Assembly (NCBI RefSeq): GCF_023498005.1
Contig: NZ_CP097289.1
Location: 6,138,001 to 6,202,000, forward strand
Length of the DNA: 64,000 nucleotides
Direction of reading: 5' to 3'
Source: Streptomyces durmitorensis
GTDB taxonomy: Bacteria > Actinomycetota > Actinomycetes > Streptomycetales > Streptomycetaceae
A model generated the notes under the pieces. It made no database searches, was not told the DNA's origin, and saw only the letters and a list, made by a program, of their open reading frames with translations. This document shows, piece by piece, positions 10,765 through 32,756 of the stretch; the stretch's first letter is position 1, and every line of letters starts with the position of its first letter. The position numbers and the translations under genes are program-made.

Positions 10765-13005
10765 GTGGCCCCACCCGGAGCGACCGGACCCACGACCGGC
10801 TCCACCGCCGGGCCCACCGGCCCCACCGGCCCCACCGGACTTTCCCGCCTTGCCGACCTGCATGGCGTGGCGACTTCTTACTCCCCGTCCCCGGACCGAA
10901 CGGTTCCGGCCGCCGACGCCGCGGTGATCGCGGCCCTGGCCGCCCTCGACGTGGACGCGAGCACCCCCGATGCGGTGCGGCGTGCCCTCACGTCCCGCGA
11001 GGCCGAGCTGGCCGCCCGCCTGCTGCCGCCGACGGTCGTGGTGTGGCAGGGGACCCCTGAGGCACCCCCGCCCTGGGCCGGGCTGCCGCCGGGGACGCGG
11101 GTGTGGGTGGAGACGGAGTGGGGGGAGCGGGTGGAGTTCCCGGAGATCGCGCCGCGGGGCAATCGGGTGGGTGGGAGGGAGACATCGCCGCGAAGCGGCG
11201 CACAGGCAGAGCCACGAGAGGCGCCGCCCCTGCCACTGGGCGTACACCGGCTCCGAGCCACGACCCCGGACGCCCAAACAGCCACCGCCCACTTAATAGT
11301 CGCCCCGCACCGCTTACCGCCCCCGCGCGAGAAATCGTACGGAATTCTCGTCCAGCTCTACTCCCTCCTCTCCCGCCGCTCCTGGGGCATGGGCGACCTC
11401 GGGGACCTCGCCGAGCTCGCCGCCTGGTCAGGGCGGGCTCTTGGCGCGGGATTCGTGCAGGTCAACCCTTTGCACGCAGCGGTCCCGAAGCCCCAGGACG
11501 GAGCGTCCGACCCCTCTCCGTACCGCCCGTCGTCGCGCCGCTTCCCCGACCCCGTCCACCTGCGGGTCGAGGACATTCCCGAGTACGCCCACCTGGAGGG
11601 CGAGGCCCGCGATCTGGCCGCGCATCTCACGCGCCGAGCCGCCGCGCTGCGCGAATCCGTCCTCCAGCAGGGCCAGTTGATCGACCGCGACACGGTCTGG
11701 GCGCTCAAGCTCAAGGCCCTGGAGCTGATCCGCGAGGTCCCGCTCGGACCCGGACGGCGCGCCGCCTACAACGACTTCCTCGCCGAGCACGGCGAAGCCC
11801 TTGAGGACCACGCCACTTGGTACGCGCTCGCCGAGCGGTACGGCCCCGACTGGCACACCTGGCCCGCGCCCCTGCGCGACCCCGCATCGCCCCGGACCGC
11901 CCGCGCCCGCCGCGAGTTGATGGATCGCGTGGACTTCCACTGCCGTCTCGCCTGGCTCACCGACGCCCAACTCGCCGCCGCGCAGCGCTCCGCGCGCGAC
12001 GCCGGCATGGGCATCGGCCTCGTGCACGACCTCGCGGTCGGCGTGCACCCGGCGGGAGCCGACGCCTGGGCGCAGCAGCGGCACTTCGCCGCGGGCATGT
12101 CGGCGGGCGCCCCGCCGGACGCGTTCAACGCGCGCGGCCAGGACTGGGGCCTGCCGCCCTGGCGCCCCGACCGCCTGGCCGAGTCCGGGTACGCCCCCTA
12201 CCGCGCCCTCCTGCGCGCACTGCTGCGCAACGCGGGCGCGATCCGCATCGACCACGTGATGGGGCTCTTCCGGCTCTGGTGGGTCCCGGAGGGCCGCGCG
12301 CCCACCGAGGGAACGTATGTCCGGTACGACGCCGATGCGATGCTCGCCGTCCTCGCCCTGGAGGCGCACCGCGCGGGCGCCCTCGTCATCGGCGAGGACC
12401 TCGGCACCGTGGAGCCGGGCGTCCGCGAGACCCTCCAGCGGCACGGCGTGCTCGGCACCTCCGTGCTCTGGTTCGAGCGGGACTGGACCGGCACGGGACG
12501 GCCGCTGCCGCCCGAGCGGTGGCGCGCGGACTGCCTGGCCACCGCCACCACCCACGACCTGCCGTCCACCGCGGCCCGCATCACCGGTGAGCACGTCCAA
12601 CTCCGGGACAGGCTCGGCCTGCTCGCCCGCCCCGCGGCCTTCGAGCGGGCCGAGGCGGCGGCCGATGTGGCGGAGTGGCTCGCGCTGCTCTCCCGCCTCG
12701 GGATGCTGCCCGGCGGCGGTGGCAACGAGCAGGAGGAGATCCGCGCCGTCCACCGCTTCCTGCTCGCCACCCCGGCCCGCATGATCGGCGTATGGCTGCC
12801 GGACGCGGTCGGCGACCGCCGCCCGCAGAACCTCCCCGGCACCTGGGACCAGTACCCCAACTGGCGGCTGCCGGTCGCCGACGCCGAAGGCCGCCCCGTC
12901 ACCCTGGAGGAACTCGCCGCCTCACCCCGCGTGCACGCGTTCATGGACGTGTTCCGCACCCGCGGGGAGCCCCGTACGGCACCCCCGGGCGCGCGGCCCG
13001 TTTAG
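10765..13005 (+). CDS. malQ: 4-alpha-glucanotransferase (amylomaltase)
   Basis: 746-aa GH77 enzyme that transfers maltosyl and longer glucan chains between 1,4-alpha-glucans in cytoplasmic maltodextrin and glycogen metabolism. It belongs to the long MalQ type with an N-terminal extension. Catalytic residues are recognisable: nucleophile Asp496 in RIDHVMGLFRLWWVP, acid/base Glu544 in GEDLGT, and Asp598 in THDLPS. The N-terminus carries a collagen-like GPTGPTGPTG stretch. Residues about 131-146 (GNRVGGRETSPRSGAQ) are encoded by an in-frame copy of the dispersed G-quadruplex/hairpin repeat, a recent-looking insertion between an FPEIA strand and the PLPLGVHRLR strand. GTG start abuts the preceding TAA. 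Confidence 0.93.
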   Translation: MAPPGATGPTTGSTAGPTGPTGPTGLSRLADLHGVATSYSPSPDRTVPAADAAVIAALAALDVDASTPDAVRRALTSREAELAARLLPPTVVVWQGTPEAPPPWAGLPPGTRVWVETEWGERVEFPEIAPRGNRVGGRETSPRSGAQAEPREAPPLPLGVHRLRATTPDAQTATAHLIVAPHRLPPPREKSYGILVQLYSLLSRRSWGMGDLGDLAELAAWSGRALGAGFVQVNPLHAAVPKPQDGASDPSPYRPSSRRFPDPVHLRVEDIPEYAHLEGEARDLAAHLTRRAAALRESVLQQGQLIDRDTVWALKLKALELIREVPLGPGRRAAYNDFLAEHGEALEDHATWYALAERYGPDWHTWPAPLRDPASPRTARARRELMDRVDFHCRLAWLTDAQLAAAQRSARDAGMGIGLVHDLAVGVHPAGADAWAQQRHFAAGMSAGAPPDAFNARGQDWGLPPWRPDRLAESGYAPYRALLRALLRNAGAIRIDHVMGLFRLWWVPEGRAPTEGTYVRYDADAMLAVLALEAHRAGALVIGEDLGTVEPGVRETLQRHGVLGTSVLWFERDWTGTGRPLPPERWRADCLATATTHDLPSTAARITGEHVQLRDRLGLLARPAAFERAEAAADVAEWLALLSRLGMLPGGGGNEQEEIRAVHRFLLATPARMIGVWLPDAVGDRRPQNLPGTWDQYPNWRLPVADAEGRPVTLEELAASPRVHAFMDVFRTRGEPRTAPPGARPV
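11155..11200 (+). repeat. G-quadruplex/hairpin repeat copy inside malQ
   Basis: The first 21 bases (11155-11175) are identical to 18153-18173 in the intergenic repeat block. The copy has GGGTGGGTGGGAGGG at 11165-11179 and a hairpin CGCCGC-GAA-GCGGCG at 11186-11200. It is in frame and codes through, G-rich strand in the sense of the gene. Confidence 0.85.
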
Positions 13006-16879: not shown

Positions 16880-17797
16880 ATGAGTGAGTGGGACATCAAG
16901 AAGCTGCAGATCCTGCGTACGTTGAGTGAGCGGGGCACGGTCACGGCGACGGCGCAGGCGCTGCGGATGACGCCGTCGGCGGTGTCGCAGCAGCTGTCCA
17001 ACCTCGCGAAGCAGCTGGGGGTGCCGCTCCTTGAGGCGCACGGGCGGCGGGTCCGCCTGACGGACGCGGCGCACCTCGTGCTGCGTCACGCGGAGGCGGT
17101 CTTCGCCCAACTTGAGCTGGCTGACGCGGAGTTGGCCGCGTACGCGCAGGGTGAGGCGGGGGAGGTGCGGGTCGGGGCGTTCTCGACCGCGGTGCCCGCG
17201 CTGGTCGTACCCGCGGTGCGGGAGCTGAGGGCCGCGGCGCCGGGGATCTCGGTGCGGGTTCGTGAGGTGGAGGCGGCGGAGGCGTACGAGTTGCTGGCCG
17301 CGGGGGAGGTGGACGTGGCCCTCTCCTTGGCGGTGACGGCGCCGGCCGCGGCGGACGCGGACACGCGCTTCACGCGGGAGTCGCTGCTCGCGGACCCGCT
17401 GGACGTGGCACTTCCGGTGGATCACGCGCTGGCGGAGGTGGAGGGTCTGAGGCTCGCGGATTTGGCGGCGGAGCCGTGGATCTTCGGGGGGAGCGGTCCC
17501 TGGTCGGAGATCACGCGGGCGGCGTGCGAGGGGGCCGGGTTCACGCCCGAGCAGGCGCATTCCGCCTCCGGCTGGACGGCGATCCTGGCGATGGTGGAGG
17601 CGGGGATGGGGGTCGCTCTGGTCCCACGGATGGCGGCGGTCCGCCGTGACGGCGTGGTGATGCGGTCCCTGTCCGCGGACCGGCCCCGCCGCCATGTGGT
17701 GGCGGCGGTTCGCCGCGGGGCCGCGGGGGGCGCGGCGGTCAGCAGGGTCTTGTCGGCGCTCCGGGCGGTTCCCCTGCGGGGGGCGGAGGCGGAGTAA
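16880..17797 (+). CDS. LysR-family transcriptional regulator
   Basis: 305 aa. Winged HTH at about residues 5-62 (LQILRTLSERGTVTATAQAL, then MTPSAVSQQLSNLAKQLGV), followed by the LysR substrate-binding domain (GEVRVGAFSTAVPALVVPAV). It is read in the same direction as and close behind the DMT exporter, so it may control that exporter, although LysR genes are more often divergent from targets. Start taken at ATG in DSM-SEWD; an upstream in-frame start would add 13 unlikely residues. It ends at the edge of the repeat block. Confidence 0.9.
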   Translation: MSEWDIKKLQILRTLSERGTVTATAQALRMTPSAVSQQLSNLAKQLGVPLLEAHGRRVRLTDAAHLVLRHAEAVFAQLELADAELAAYAQGEAGEVRVGAFSTAVPALVVPAVRELRAAAPGISVRVREVEAAEAYELLAAGEVDVALSLAVTAPAAADADTRFTRESLLADPLDVALPVDHALAEVEGLRLADLAAEPWIFGGSGPWSEITRAACEGAGFTPEQAHSASGWTAILAMVEAGMGVALVPRMAAVRRDGVVMRSLSADRPRRHVVAAVRRGAAGGAAVSRVLSALRAVPLRGAEAE

Positions 17798-17844: not shown

Positions 17845-18146
17845 GCCTGCGGGCCGCCTTCCGACTCCCGCGCGGATCTCTCCCACCCACCCGCCCGATA
17901 CTCCGCAGTGCCAGCGTGGCCGGATCCTGCGTCTGCGGGCCGCCCCCGACTTCCCGCGCTTCGCGCGGATCTTTCCCGCCCGCCCGCCCGATACTCCGCA
18001 GTGGATGGGTGGTCGGGTTCTGCGTCTGCGGGCCGCCTTCCGACTCCCGCGCTTCGCGCGGATCTTCCCCACCCGCCCACCCGATACTCCGTGGCTGACG
18101 CCTGCCTTTCCGCGCTGCGCGCGGATTCTCCCGCCCGCCCACCCGA
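17845..18146 (-). repeat. Array A: four G-quadruplex/hairpin repeats
   Basis: C-rich on the + strand. Four-tract motifs lie at 17882-17896, 17975-17989, 18068-18082 and 18130-18144, each CCCnCCCnCCCnCCC. Hairpins CCGCGC-TTC-GCGCGG or CCGCGC-TGC-GCGCGG precede copies 2, 3 and 4; copy 1 has lost the loop and part of the arms. Copies 1-3 also share the leader CTGCGGGCCGCC, with periods of 86 and 93 bp. Confidence 0.9.
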
Positions 18147-18152
18147 TCACCC

Positions 18153-18399
18153 CGGGGCAATCGGGTGGGTGGGTGGGAAGGATCCGCGCGCAGCGCGGGA
18201 AGTTGGGAAGTCGGGGGGCGGCGCTCAGGCAGTAGTCCCGATCACCCTGTGGCTGCGGGGCAGTCGGGTGGGTGGGTGGGAGAGATCCGCGCGCAGCGCG
18301 GGAAGGTGGGCTGTGGCGCTCAGGCGGTGGTCCCGATCACCCTGTGGCCGTGGGGTGATCGGGCGGGTGGGTGGGCGCATCCGCGCGGAGCGCGGGAAG
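18153..18399 (+). repeat. Array B: three inverted G-quadruplex/hairpin repeats
   Basis: G-rich on the + strand. Four-tract motifs lie at 18163-18177, 18266-18280 (both GGGTGGGTGGGTGGG) and 18361-18375 (GGGCGGGTGGGTGGG), each followed by CCGCGC-nnn-GCGCGG. The units are spaced about 95-103 bp. The spacers also repeat: a 33-bp block at 18221-18253 recurs at 18316-18348 with few changes. Confidence 0.9.
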
Positions 18400-18475
18400 G
18401 GGCAGATGGCCGGTAGGCGGGGGCTGGTGGCCGAGGCCGGCGGGGGTGGCGGGAGCCGCCGGCCTCGGCGGTGGG

Positions 18476-21043
18476 TCAGGCGTCCGCCGACTGGGCCCGC
18501 AGGGCCCTTTCCACGCCCGCGCGGGACTCCGTGATCAGGCGGCGCAGGGCCGCCGACGGGGAGGCCGAGGCCAGCCACGCGTCCGTCGAGTCCAGCGTGG
18601 CCTGGGACACCTGGAGCGACGGGTACAGGCCCACCGCGATCTGCTGCGCCATCTCGTGCGAGCGCGAGTCCCACGCCCCCTTGACCGCGGCGAAGAACTT
18701 CTCCGTGTACGGGGCGAGGAGTTCGCGCTGGTCCGTCTGGACGAAGCCGCCGATCACGGACTCCTGGATCGCGTTCGGCAGCTTGTCGGACTCGACGACC
18801 GAGGCCCACGCCTCCGCCTTCGCCTCCGGCGTGGGCCGCGCCGCCCGCGCCGAAGCGGCGTGCCGCTCGCCCGCGGCCGTCTTGTCGCGGTCGAGCTCCG
18901 CCGTGATCCCGGCCTCGTCGAGCCGCCCCGTCGCCGCGAGCCGGTGCACGAAGGCCCAGCGCAGCTCCGTGTCCACCGCGAGGCCCTCGATGGCCTGCTT
19001 GCCCGACACCAGCTCCTCGATCAGCGTCAGCTGCTCTTCCGTACGCGCCGTCGCCGCGAACGCCCGTGCCCACGCCAGCTGGTGGTCACTGCCCGGCTCC
19101 GCCGAGCGGAGGTGCGCGAGCGTCGCCTCCGTCCAACGGGCCAGCGCCTCGTCCCGCCCCGCCGGAGCCGCGTACAGCTCAAGGGCCATCTTCACCTGGC
19201 GGTGCAGCGACTGCACGACCCCGATGTCCGACTCCTTGGCGATGCCGGAGAGGACCAGCGACAGGTACTCCCGCGTGGGCAGTTCCGCGTCCCGCGTCAT
19301 GTCCCACGCCGAAGCCCACGACAGCGCACGCGGCAGCGAGGCCTCGAAGTCGCCGATGTGCTCCGTCACGAAGGCGAGCGACTCCGTGTCCATGCGGACC
19401 TTCGCGTACGACAGGTCGTCGTCGTTCAGGAGGATCACCGCGGGGCGCCTGCGGCCCACCAGCTCGTCCACGGCCGTCAGTTCGCCGTCCACGTCCAGCT
19501 CCACGCGGTCCGTGCGCAGCAGCTTGCCGCTCGCGTCGTCGAGGTCGTAGAAGCCGATCGCGATCCGATGGGGGCGCAGTGTCGGCTCACCCTTCGCGCC
19601 CGCCGGGAGCGCCGGTGCCTCCTGCTTGACCGCGAACGACGTGATCTTGCCCGTCGTGTCGACGTCCACCACCGGACGCAGGACGTTGATGCCCGCCGTC
19701 TCCAGCCACTTCTTCGACCACGTCTTCAGGTCGCGCCCGCTGGTCTCCTCAAGCGCGCCGAGCAGGTCGGACAGGCGCGTGTTGCCGAACGCGTGCGCCT
19801 TGAAGTACGCCTGCACGCCCCGGAAGAACTCGTCCATGCCGACGTACGCGACGAGCTGCTTGAGCACGCTCGCGCCCTTGGCGTACGTGATGCCGTCGAA
19901 GTTGACGAGCACGTCGTCGAGGTCGCGGATGTCCGCCATGATCGGGTGCGTGGAGGGAAGCTGGTCCTGGCGGTACGCCCACGTCTTCATGGAGTTGGCG
20001 AACGTCGTCCAGGAGTGCGGCCAGCGCGAGTTCTCCGCGTACGCCTGGCAGGCGATGGACGTGTACGTGGCGAACGACTCGTTCAGCCAGAGGTCGTTCC
20101 ACCACTCCATCGTCACCAGGTCGCCGAACCACATGTGGGCCAGCTCGTGGAGGATGGTCTCCGCGCGCGTCTCGTACGCCGCGTCCGTCACCTTCGAACG
20201 GAACACGTACTGGTCGCGGATGGTCACCGCGCCCGCGTTCTCCATCGCGCCCGCGTTGAACTCCGGCACGAAGAGCTGGTCGTACTTCGCGAAGGGGTAC
20301 GCGTAGTCGAACTTCTCCTGGAACCAGTCGAAGCCCTGCCGGGTGACCTCGAAGATCGCGTCCGAGTCGAGGAACTCGGCCAGCGAGGGACGGCAGTAGA
20401 TGCCGAGCGGAACCGACTGGCCGCCAGGACCCTCGTACGAGCTGTGGACCGAGTGATACGGACCGACGATGAGCGCCGTGATGTACGTCGACATGCGCGG
20501 CGTGGGCTCGAAGACCCAGACGTCACCGCTGGGCTCGGGCGTCGGCGAATTCGAGACGACCGTCCAGCCGGACGGCGCCTTCACGGTGAACTGGAACGTC
20601 GCCTTGAGATCGGGCTGCTCGAACGACGCGAAGACGCGGCGCGCGTCCGGGACCTCGAACTGCGTGTAGAGATAGGCCTGTTGGTCGACCGGGTCGACGA
20701 ACCGGTGCAGACCCTCACCCGTGTTGGTGTAGTCGCAGTCGGCGACCACCTTGAGCTCGTTGGGTCCCGCCTCCAGGTGCTTCAGCGCGATGCGCGCGTC
20801 ACGGAAGACGGCGGCGACGTCCAGCGAGTGGCCGTTCAGGACGACCTCGTGGACCGCGGGGGCCACCAGGTCGATGAACGTCTCGGCGCCCGCCTCCGCG
20901 GAGTCGAAGCGCACCGTGGTCACCGACCGGTAGGTGCCGCCCTCTTGCGCGCCGGAGAGGTCGAGATCGATCTCGTACGAGTCAACGGTGAGCAGCTTCG
21001 CCCGCTGCTGCGCCTCTTCGCGGGTCAGATTGGTGCCGGGCAC
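18476..21043 (-). CDS. pepN: Aminopeptidase N
   Basis: 855-aa M1 zinc aminopeptidase, cytoplasmic, removing N-terminal residues from peptides. The substrate-anchoring GAMENAG motif is present, as is the zinc site HELAH followed 18 residues on by Glu in LNESF. The N-terminal saddle domain begins MPGTNLTREEAQ, and the ERAP1-like C-terminal helical domain (about 520-850) is complete. Length is normal for the actinobacterial PepN group. A paralogue of the same build is encoded at 38.7-41.3 kb. The 3' end faces array B of the repeats. Confidence 0.95.
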   Translation of the reverse strand: MPGTNLTREEAQQRAKLLTVDSYEIDLDLSGAQEGGTYRSVTTVRFDSAEAGAETFIDLVAPAVHEVVLNGHSLDVAAVFRDARIALKHLEAGPNELKVVADCDYTNTGEGLHRFVDPVDQQAYLYTQFEVPDARRVFASFEQPDLKATFQFTVKAPSGWTVVSNSPTPEPSGDVWVFEPTPRMSTYITALIVGPYHSVHSSYEGPGGQSVPLGIYCRPSLAEFLDSDAIFEVTRQGFDWFQEKFDYAYPFAKYDQLFVPEFNAGAMENAGAVTIRDQYVFRSKVTDAAYETRAETILHELAHMWFGDLVTMEWWNDLWLNESFATYTSIACQAYAENSRWPHSWTTFANSMKTWAYRQDQLPSTHPIMADIRDLDDVLVNFDGITYAKGASVLKQLVAYVGMDEFFRGVQAYFKAHAFGNTRLSDLLGALEETSGRDLKTWSKKWLETAGINVLRPVVDVDTTGKITSFAVKQEAPALPAGAKGEPTLRPHRIAIGFYDLDDASGKLLRTDRVELDVDGELTAVDELVGRRRPAVILLNDDDLSYAKVRMDTESLAFVTEHIGDFEASLPRALSWASAWDMTRDAELPTREYLSLVLSGIAKESDIGVVQSLHRQVKMALELYAAPAGRDEALARWTEATLAHLRSAEPGSDHQLAWARAFAATARTEEQLTLIEELVSGKQAIEGLAVDTELRWAFVHRLAATGRLDEAGITAELDRDKTAAGERHAASARAARPTPEAKAEAWASVVESDKLPNAIQESVIGGFVQTDQRELLAPYTEKFFAAVKGAWDSRSHEMAQQIAVGLYPSLQVSQATLDSTDAWLASASPSAALRRLITESRAGVERALRAQSADA

Positions 21044-32230: not shown

Positions 32231-32689
32231 ATGACCGCGACCGGCACACTCCGCACCGGCCACATCGGCCTGAACGTCACGGACATCGAGCGCTCGCTCG
32301 CCTTCTACCGCGACGTCATCGGCTACGGCGTGATCAGCGAGGGCAAGGAAGAGGGCCGCAGGTTCGCCTTCCTGGGCGAGGGCGGGAGCCCCGCGCTCAC
32401 GCTCTGGCAGCAGGCGGACGCGGCATACGCGGCTTCGAACGCGGGCCTGCACCACCTGGCGCTGGAGGTGGACACCATCGAGGAGGTGCGGGCGTACGAG
32501 AGTGCTCTGCGCGCGTACGGGGTGGAGTTCGCCTACGAGGGAGTCGTCTCGCACGGCGAGGGTGCCGCGTCAGGCGGGATCTTCTTCCATGACCCGGACG
32601 GCACGCGCCTCGAAATCTACGCGGCATCTGGCGTGGGCGCCTCGGATCGTGCCCCGGTGGTTGCCGCGCCGACCTGTGGGTTCTTCTGA
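32231..32689 (+). CDS. VOC-family (glyoxalase-fold) protein
   Basis: 152 aa with two VOC half-domains: TGHIGLNVTDIERSLAFYRD and, in the second, AGLHHLALEVDTIEEVRAYE, ending FFHDPDGTRLEIYA. Metal ligands (His13 and the His and Glu of the second half) are in place, so a metal-dependent dioxygenase or glyoxalase-type reaction is possible; it could also be a resistance protein that binds a drug. Strong AAGGAG before the ATG. Divergent from the CGNR gene. Confidence 0.88.
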   Translation: MTATGTLRTGHIGLNVTDIERSLAFYRDVIGYGVISEGKEEGRRFAFLGEGGSPALTLWQQADAAYAASNAGLHHLALEVDTIEEVRAYESALRAYGVEFAYEGVVSHGEGAASGGIFFHDPDGTRLEIYAASGVGASDRAPVVAAPTCGFF

Positions 32690-32710: not shown

Positions 32711-32756
32711 CCTGACCCGCCGCTTCGCGGCGGAGTTCTCCCGCCCACCCACCCGT
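32711..32756 (-). repeat. Isolated G-quadruplex/hairpin repeat copy
   Basis: Hairpin CCGCCGC-TTC-GCGGCGG (32717-32733), then CCCGCCCACCCACCC (32740-32754). Same order and strand as array A, between the VOC and PNPOx-like genes, 22 bp after the VOC stop. The stem differs from that of the arrays on both arms. Confidence 0.85.

Follow-up and report, generated by a model that had tools for sequence, protein, structure and literature searches.

A dispersed Streptomyces repeat joining a four-tract G-quadruplex motif to a GC hairpin at gene 3' ends: a candidate terminator-like cassette

Among described bacterial repeats, the closest in kind to the element reported here are the GGGNATC quadruplex-forming repeats of Xanthomonas and Nostoc (Rehm et al. 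2015, PMC4692102). As presented in the available part of that paper, these are dispersed and mainly intergenic, prefer four G-tract units, are under-represented between divergent genes and in many cases lie near stop codons, all of which holds for the Streptomyces element as well. Unlike the GGGNATC heptamer, the Streptomyces unit is GGGN with one-base loops. About half of its copies carry a GC hairpin with a U-rich spacer, and no hairpin is mentioned for the GGGNATC repeats in that part of the paper; furthermore, the element forms inverted pairs and differs in the strand found near stop codons.

REP sequences and BIMEs, as described in the accessible sections of Nunvar et al. (2010, PMC2817692), are likewise short palindromes present in more than 100 copies, extragenic and lineage-specific, and they share with the Streptomyces element inverted pairs, arrays and turnover, although in Streptomyces the palindrome is found in only about half of the copies. 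Unlike REP/BIME systems with a RAYT, the element has no Y1 transposase in eight of ten carrier genomes and no GTAG-type head, and it adds a G-tract and an orientation towards stop codons.

How transcripts are brought to an end in GC-rich Streptomyces, with their few U-tracts, is an open question in the available text of two recent studies (PMC12207403, PMC8269248). The element resembles the weak-U intrinsic terminators described there in its GC hairpin, its three to four or so U and its location soon past the stop codon; it differs from them in its conserved downstream tract, in being a multicopy family and in its spread and loss between close relatives. Surveys of bacterial quadruplexes report a general intergenic enrichment and, in the portions available, describe no such Streptomyces family (PMC12563890, PMC12581993). 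The original prediction, made from the sequence of this locus, knew of no named Streptomyces element with this architecture, and none was found in the open-access literature, subscription papers being outside the search.

The locus lies in a window of 64,000 nucleotides, the whole stretch of DNA that was analysed, from the genome of Streptomyces durmitorensis (9.86 Mb in two contigs; hereafter G000, the other G numbers being relatives' genomes). A motif search on both strands located nine perfect GGGNGGGNGGGNGGG motifs, i.e. four G3 tracts with one-base spacers (G3N1 x4), and all nine predicted copies were among them (Table 1). The positions 11155 and 32711 originally given for two of them are correct as starts of whole copies, the tracts themselves beginning at 11165 and 32740. 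A hairpin was also confirmed near eight of the nine, with a 6-7-bp stem and a 3-nt loop, 4-6 nt from the tract; in the 17882 copy one arm is gone. Seven motifs form an array between a convergent LysR-family gene and an M1 aminopeptidase gene (pepN), and the separate 14-bp hairpin at 18430..18469 is evidence against the array being the sole terminator at pepN. Tandem copies with a period of 93-94 bp occur at different loci and in different species (17882/17975/18068 in the window, 5603741-5603927 in G000 and the pepN site of G093), with filler sequence that differs.

Table 1. Positions of repeat copies and neighbouring features in the window
Feature	Position	Strand	Basis
Core inverted pair: hairpin, C3 tracts, GATCACCCC/GGGGCAATC centre (18 bp), G3 tracts, hairpin	18109..18198	.	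sequence, coordinates
G3N1 x4 tract	18163..18177	+	motif search
Hairpin of 18163 copy, 6-bp stem, 3-nt loop	18184..18198	+	
G3N1 x4 tract	18266..18280	+	motif search
Hairpin of 18266 copy	18287..18301	+	
G3N1 x4 tract, array copy closest to pepN stop	18361..18375	+	motif search
Hairpin of 18361 copy	18381..18395	+	
G3N1 x4 tract	18130..18144	-	motif search
Hairpin of 18130 copy, 7-bp stem	18109..18125	-	
G3N1 x4 tract, 93 bp from 17975 copy	18068..18082	-	motif search
Hairpin of 18068 copy	18047..18061	-	
G3N1 x4 tract, 93 bp from both 17882 and 18068 copies	17975..17989	-	motif search
Hairpin of 17975 copy	17954..17968	-	
G3N1 x4 tract, one hairpin arm lost, array copy closest to LysR-gene stop	17882..17896	-	motif search
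G3N1 x4 tract within malQ, in frame	11165..11179	+	motif search
Hairpin of malQ copy, 6-bp stem	11186..11200	+	
G3N1 x4 tract, 50 bp past stop of ORF 32231-32689 (+)	32740..32754	-	motif search
Hairpin of 32740 copy, 7-bp stem, on stop-codon side of upstream gene	32717..32733	-	RNA fold
LysR-family regulator, left neighbour of array, convergent with pepN	16880..17797	+	ORF, Pfam
pepN-type M1 aminopeptidase, right neighbour of array	18476..21043	-	Pfam
Separate 14-bp hairpin directly past pepN stop, ahead of array	18430..18469	-	RNA fold
malQ, 4-alpha-glucanotransferase, Glyco_hydro_77, one in-frame copy	10765..13005	+	ORF, Pfam

The description of the element as a dispersed repeat stands with some amendments: the 11165 copy is not intergenic but inside malQ, and the unit is longer than tract plus hairpin. 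The malQ copy lies in frame in a variable linker, where it contributes the peptide RG.RVGG.E (window 10765-13005; loci L189 and L190), and represents a repeat adding residues to a protein. It is present in three of 15 genomes (G000, G093 and G247) and absent from the other 12 examined.

Genome-wide, G000 holds 223 perfect motifs, overlapping registers being counted separately. An unselected contiguous 848 kb including the window contains 51, against 0-5 in each of 24 simulated Markov sequences (orders 1, 2, 3 and 5, six each), which bears out the enrichment on which the original prediction depended. Fifty of these 51 lie outside called genes, or 49 after malQ is extended, in a stretch of which 84% is called coding; the gene calls come from a simple script, not from annotation. 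The 848 kb and a stretch of G280 were not chosen for copies, while 20-kb pieces and 3-kb loci were selected for holding them. Removal of identical sequences from 173 rows gave 150 distinct G000 copies, four of which are the second register of a neighbouring run, and 20 copies from relatives. A KOPS/AIMS-like replication-strand bias was dropped, having been seen only among the matches listed, with the two strands listed to different positions; strand counts in the complete 848 kb are 19 plus and 32 minus.

On the G-rich strand, a full copy runs from GCGGGGYRAWC through GGGYGGGYGGGNGGG and about six bases (AARSAT) to a GC stem of 6-7 bp. The leading word, directly 5' of the tract, is conserved in G000; the loops of GGGYGGGYGGGNGGG are mostly T, T and C, and the loop of the stem is mostly GNA. 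A stem of at least 5 bp is found in 81 of the 150 distinct G000 copies, i.e. about half, and the copies without one include members of 51-bp tandem units. Single spacer bases had been described as varying: their one-base length is kept in tract-keeping copies with rare exceptions, but loops 1 and 2 are exclusively T or C in the hairpin-type copies (81/81). Among the 69 other copies, loop 2 is A in three and loop 1 is G in one. Loop 3 is mainly C or T. Pyrimidines stabilise one-base quadruplex loops more than A does; common ancestry could be an alternative cause of the all-pyrimidine loops 1 and 2.

The stems vary between copies yet tend to remain paired. With the stem position held fixed across the full set of 150 copies, standard pairs fill 690 of 1050 pair cells, against a shuffle maximum of 613; with the pairing shifted one base 5' the count is 554 (shuffle 525), and one base 3' it is 492 (shuffle 502). 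G-C/C-G exchanges occur at stem pairs 3 and 4. The fixed-position count replaces a figure of 541/560, which was discarded because those copies had been chosen for being paired. In the position table, AAASAT stands before the stem on one strand and approximately CTGTC on the other. As to identity with known RNA families, Rfam returned only microRNA-precursor families on the inverted pair, below gathering scores, and these were taken as chance matches.

Clusters of mixed orientation (copies within 400 nt) follow a fixed order, minus then plus, in 21 of 21 cases in stretches of G000, G123 and G093 and in all four G280 clusters; by eye, it is also seen in 17 of 17 G093 clusters among the matches listed. 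In such clusters the hairpins lie outside and the G-tracts face outwards from a common centre, which in the tightest inverted pairs (e.g. 18109-18198) is palindromic and 17-20 bp long. A C2 stretch of G329 has a G3N1 x4 tract followed by the spacer AGAAAC and half of the other palindrome treated below, in the place that the hairpin normally takes, as though the tract were a separable module.

The claim that none of the 36 tracts in the window is broken is biased, since the window copies were picked for perfection, but it held up in an unbiased form. A search of the 848 kb with three exact hairpin types alone gave 31 distinct matches, 29 of which have a perfect tract, one a broken tract and one no tract. 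Within the 30 tract-keeping matches only 2 of 360 tract positions are not G, compared with 74 of 270 positions in the adjoining 9-nt flank, where columns -8 and -7, both G, equal the tract in fixity. A search with the 5' half, allowing at most one mismatch, returned 30 intergenic sites with a perfect tract, one with 10/12 G and 44 others with at most 8/12, the latter being read as background. A low-stringency conservation count was discarded in favour of the hairpin-only test because chance matches contaminated it. Moreover, at the pepN 3' end of the relatives G213 and G351 a G3N1 tract and a hairpin are present though the 5' half differs. The four G-tracts are conserved beyond the flanking sequence as a whole. 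Selection had been proposed to act on a quadruplex and not on a sequence word: the tighter conservation of the tract than of its flank agrees with this, but the GCGGGGYRAWC word is itself conserved in G000. Recognition by a protein with a 4-bp period would account for the spacing equally well, so the exclusion of a sequence word is half right.

Intergenic regions of at least 20 bp in the 848 kb contain copies in 7 of 79 convergent, 12 of 325 tandem and none of 115 divergent cases. The corresponding figures in a mostly orthologous 880 kb of G280, where all 33 motifs are intergenic, are 7/83, 12/354 and 0/119. In the whole material, relatives included, 11 of 168 intergenic copies were called divergent. 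Among element-bearing regions of G000 six of 72 were called so, all of them in selected smaller pieces with provisional short-piece gene calls.

Orientation was assessed on the copy nearest to each gene end in all G000 material (72 regions), and the hairpin side is directed towards the stop codon at 64 of 88 gene ends. Within 150 nt of the stop, a cut chosen after the distances were known, 53 of 63 nearest copies are oriented in this way (p 3.4e-8) and the other ten point away, while beyond 150 nt the count is 11/25. Between tandem genes, 26 of 31 copies within 150 nt have the hairpin towards the stop; at any distance this applies to 20 of 24 with a stem of at least 5 bp and to 11 of 20 without such a stem, so that the bias in tandem pairs is carried by the stem-bearing copies. 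When every hairpin copy in tandem pairs is counted, 24 point to the stop and 19 away from it, and the bias is weaker in G280 (15/21 within 150 nt, p 0.08; 17/26 overall, p 0.17). A GC hairpin soon past the stop codon in sense orientation, as in a terminator, is what these copies present, and about half of all copies have no clear hairpin.

Read as RNA from the upstream gene, the order is hairpin, a U-rich hexanucleotide (AUSUYU) and C3 tracts, and the template is the G-rich strand. At least three U within the 8 nt after the stem are found in 57 of 73 copies with a well-placed stem, compared with 36/102 (stems of at least 7 bp) and 51/173 (at least 6 bp) for control sense-strand stems up to 150 nt from a stop; the copies share ancestry and are not independent, so p-values for the spacer overstate the case. 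A first control count, 66/242, had mixed both strands and was replaced. In G280, 16 of 17 copies have the U-rich spacer. Three U is also the U-rich criterion of a Term-seq study of S. clavuligerus (PMC8269248, available part), and the accessible text on TERMITe terminators gives 3-4 U in 10 nt for Streptomyces, weaker than in most other bacteria, with transcript ends at a median distance of 4-5 nt from the stem and with 3' UTRs that are 66-76 nt long (PMC12207403). Judged on these figures, hairpin and spacer together resemble an ordinary terminator of Streptomyces, and the unusual part would be the tract just past the expected transcript end. The gene-end placement, the orientation to the stop, the U-rich spacer and the fixed order in mixed clusters are new beyond the original prediction.

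As the copies are mostly located past gene ends and face the gene like a stop signal, they may constitute a combined hairpin/quadruplex stop signal. On balance, the family is probably a clade-specific dispersed 3'-end element which acts as a transcription-terminator-like cassette with a quadruplex motif downstream; termination, folding of the quadruplex and its contribution to the stop are what we infer from the arrangement. A polymerase leaving the gene would transcribe the short GC hairpin, then AUSUYU, and would then meet CCCNCCCNCCCNCCC, with the G3N1 x4 motif on the template strand. Together, the hairpin and U-stretch would make up a weak-U intrinsic terminator, the usual kind in Streptomyces, and the motif would be located where downstream DNA enters the polymerase at the transcript end; if it folded, or slowed the polymerase in some other way, it could strengthen the stop. 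Inverted pairs between convergent genes would provide one copy per gene. There, a polymerase passing its own copy would meet the opposing one in the G-rich-RNA orientation, and an inverted pair could therefore block read-through from both sides in two ways. Copies would be spread and lost by a route independent of a resident Y1 transposase, together with local duplication.

Several observations stand against the terminator reading. The pepN gene has its own 14-bp hairpin ahead of the array, a terminator would not need arrays with as many as eight copies, about half of the copies are without a clear hairpin, and the malQ copy is inside coding sequence. Furthermore, (G3T)4 is reported to fold into a quadruplex, but transcription of (G3T) repeats on a supercoiled plasmid gave a quadruplex only with G-rich RNA and not with C-rich RNA, the latter being the orientation expected here (PMC7023247, in the part available). 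A bolder version, in which the template-strand quadruplex replaces a strong U-tract as pausing signal and the composite terminator spreads in a GC-rich genome as a mobile cassette that resets gene ends, is tentative and rather unlikely.

The distribution of the family bears on how it spreads. The strict element (5' half plus tract) is present in 15 of 150 Streptomyces genomes, and at high copy only in G000 (143), G093 (90) and G123 (53), the other 12 positives having one to four; a reversed-pattern control matches six of the 150, so single matches mean little. The tract-plus-hairpin pattern matches 15 of 392 genomes, against five matches in five genomes for the control. At least three matches are found in G000 (20), G329 (15), G093 (13), G213 (11), G247 (7), G280 (7), G123 (5), G163 (4), G351 (4) and G040 (3), and five other genomes have one each. 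Of the eleven genomes closest to G000 by PepN, eight belong to the ten with at least three matches; G081, G161 and G312 do not. Raw motif counts, poly-G runs included, are 54-479 in G280, G123, G093, G247, G329, G351 and G213 and 2-43 in 28 other genomes (11 in G040). The draft genome G163 has 2787 perfect motifs, far over other carriers; either poly-G runs from assembly or a genuine expansion may account for this. A scan with one exact consensus gave no match; a looser tract-hairpin pattern, still narrow enough to miss variants, returned 65 stretches among 84,980 species genomes, all in Streptomyces records, including Streptomyces sp. WAC 01529, S. longisporoflavus, sp. G44, S. aurantiacus, S. 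alboflavus, S. aureoverticillatus, S. aureocirculatus and S. typhae. Taken as a whole, the family belongs mainly to a single Streptomyces clade, in which the copies number dozens to hundreds.

Turnover is evident between G000 and G280, whose proteins have a median identity of 91% and which conserve 399 adjacent gene pairs. Elements are found at nine conserved pairs in both genomes, at six in G000 only and at four in G280 only, so that presence differs at 10 of 19. The pepN comparison covered 30 loci (29 relatives), among which 16 relatives were inspected; seven (G123, G093, G247, G163, G351, G213 and G280) have tracts of their own at the pepN end, with differing 5' halves and hairpins that are partly different or weaker, whereas the remaining nine lack tracts there. 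Insertion borders and target-site duplications could not be placed, the intergenic sequence being too diverged in the relatives examined. An array in G000 (C1:5445540-5446083) contains several diverged units (GCGCAGGTGGGCGGG) beside intact ones, the largest decayed set noticed.

The patchy high copy number across the genus, the differing presence at 10 of 19 element-bearing pairs and the inverted pairs and tandem arrays similar to BIMEs would also suit a REP/BIME-like non-autonomous mobile DNA, the hairpin and tract of which are recognised by a mobilising enzyme while 3' ends merely tolerate insertion; so would the in-frame malQ copy, found in G000, G093 and G247 and not in the 12 others examined. 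We regard this explanation as unlikely, although it and the terminator reading are not mutually exclusive. The original prediction suggested looking for a linked RAYT gene. Matches to Y1_Tnp (PF01797) occur in the carriers G123 (three, all partial) and G040 (four), but none was found in G000, G093, G280, G247, G163, G329, G351 and G213, i.e. eight of ten carriers checked, some with more than 150 tracts, and G161 has nine matches and yet two tracts. A resident RAYT/Y1 mobiliser was dropped on these grounds despite the matches in G123 and G040. The position table of copies reveals no GTAG-type head beside the palindrome, and the U-rich spacer and a stop-facing orientation that accompanies the hairpin are further points against this origin.

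That the C-rich RNA is itself the working part, as a rut-like Rho-loading stretch or a Rho stop behind a protective hairpin, appears improbable: the RNA AUCUUUCCCGCCCACCCACCCGAUUACCCCGC is rich in C and poor in G, as such a function would have it, but this leaves the exact C3 tracts and their single purine spacers (RNA loops 1 and 2, 81/81) unexplained, and rut sites tolerate U. In its favour, the available texts indicate that Streptomyces might make more frequent use of Rho (PMC12207403) and that REPs facilitate Rho-dependent termination (PMC2817692).

Equally improbable is a word read in duplex DNA by a nucleoid or roadblock protein at GGG every 4 bp, with no quadruplex involved; the nearly invariant spacing, where quadruplexes tolerate longer loops, and the conserved GCGGGGYRAWC beside the tract in G000 speak for it, but the pepN copies of G213 and G351 keep the tract and not the adjoining word.

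With termination in GC-rich Streptomyces in mind, the family supplies a naturally multicopy system for altering hairpin, spacer and G-tracts singly. It would be a clear bacterial case of a strongly constrained quadruplex motif at gene ends, as well as a dispersed repeat that thrives in genomes lacking a transposase of the REP type.

A second Streptomyces 3'-end palindrome (GCCCGTCCGGCGTTTGAGGAC) occupies some sites where relatives have the quadruplex element. At the convergent pair 222/223 the element is present in G000 and a GCCGGACGGGC...GCCCGTCCGGC palindrome in G280, and at the tandem pair 12/13 the element is present in G280 while G000 and G123 carry copies of the other 3'-end repeat. Both occur together at 42/43 in G280 and at 218/219 in G000, so the element and the other palindrome are not strict alternatives.
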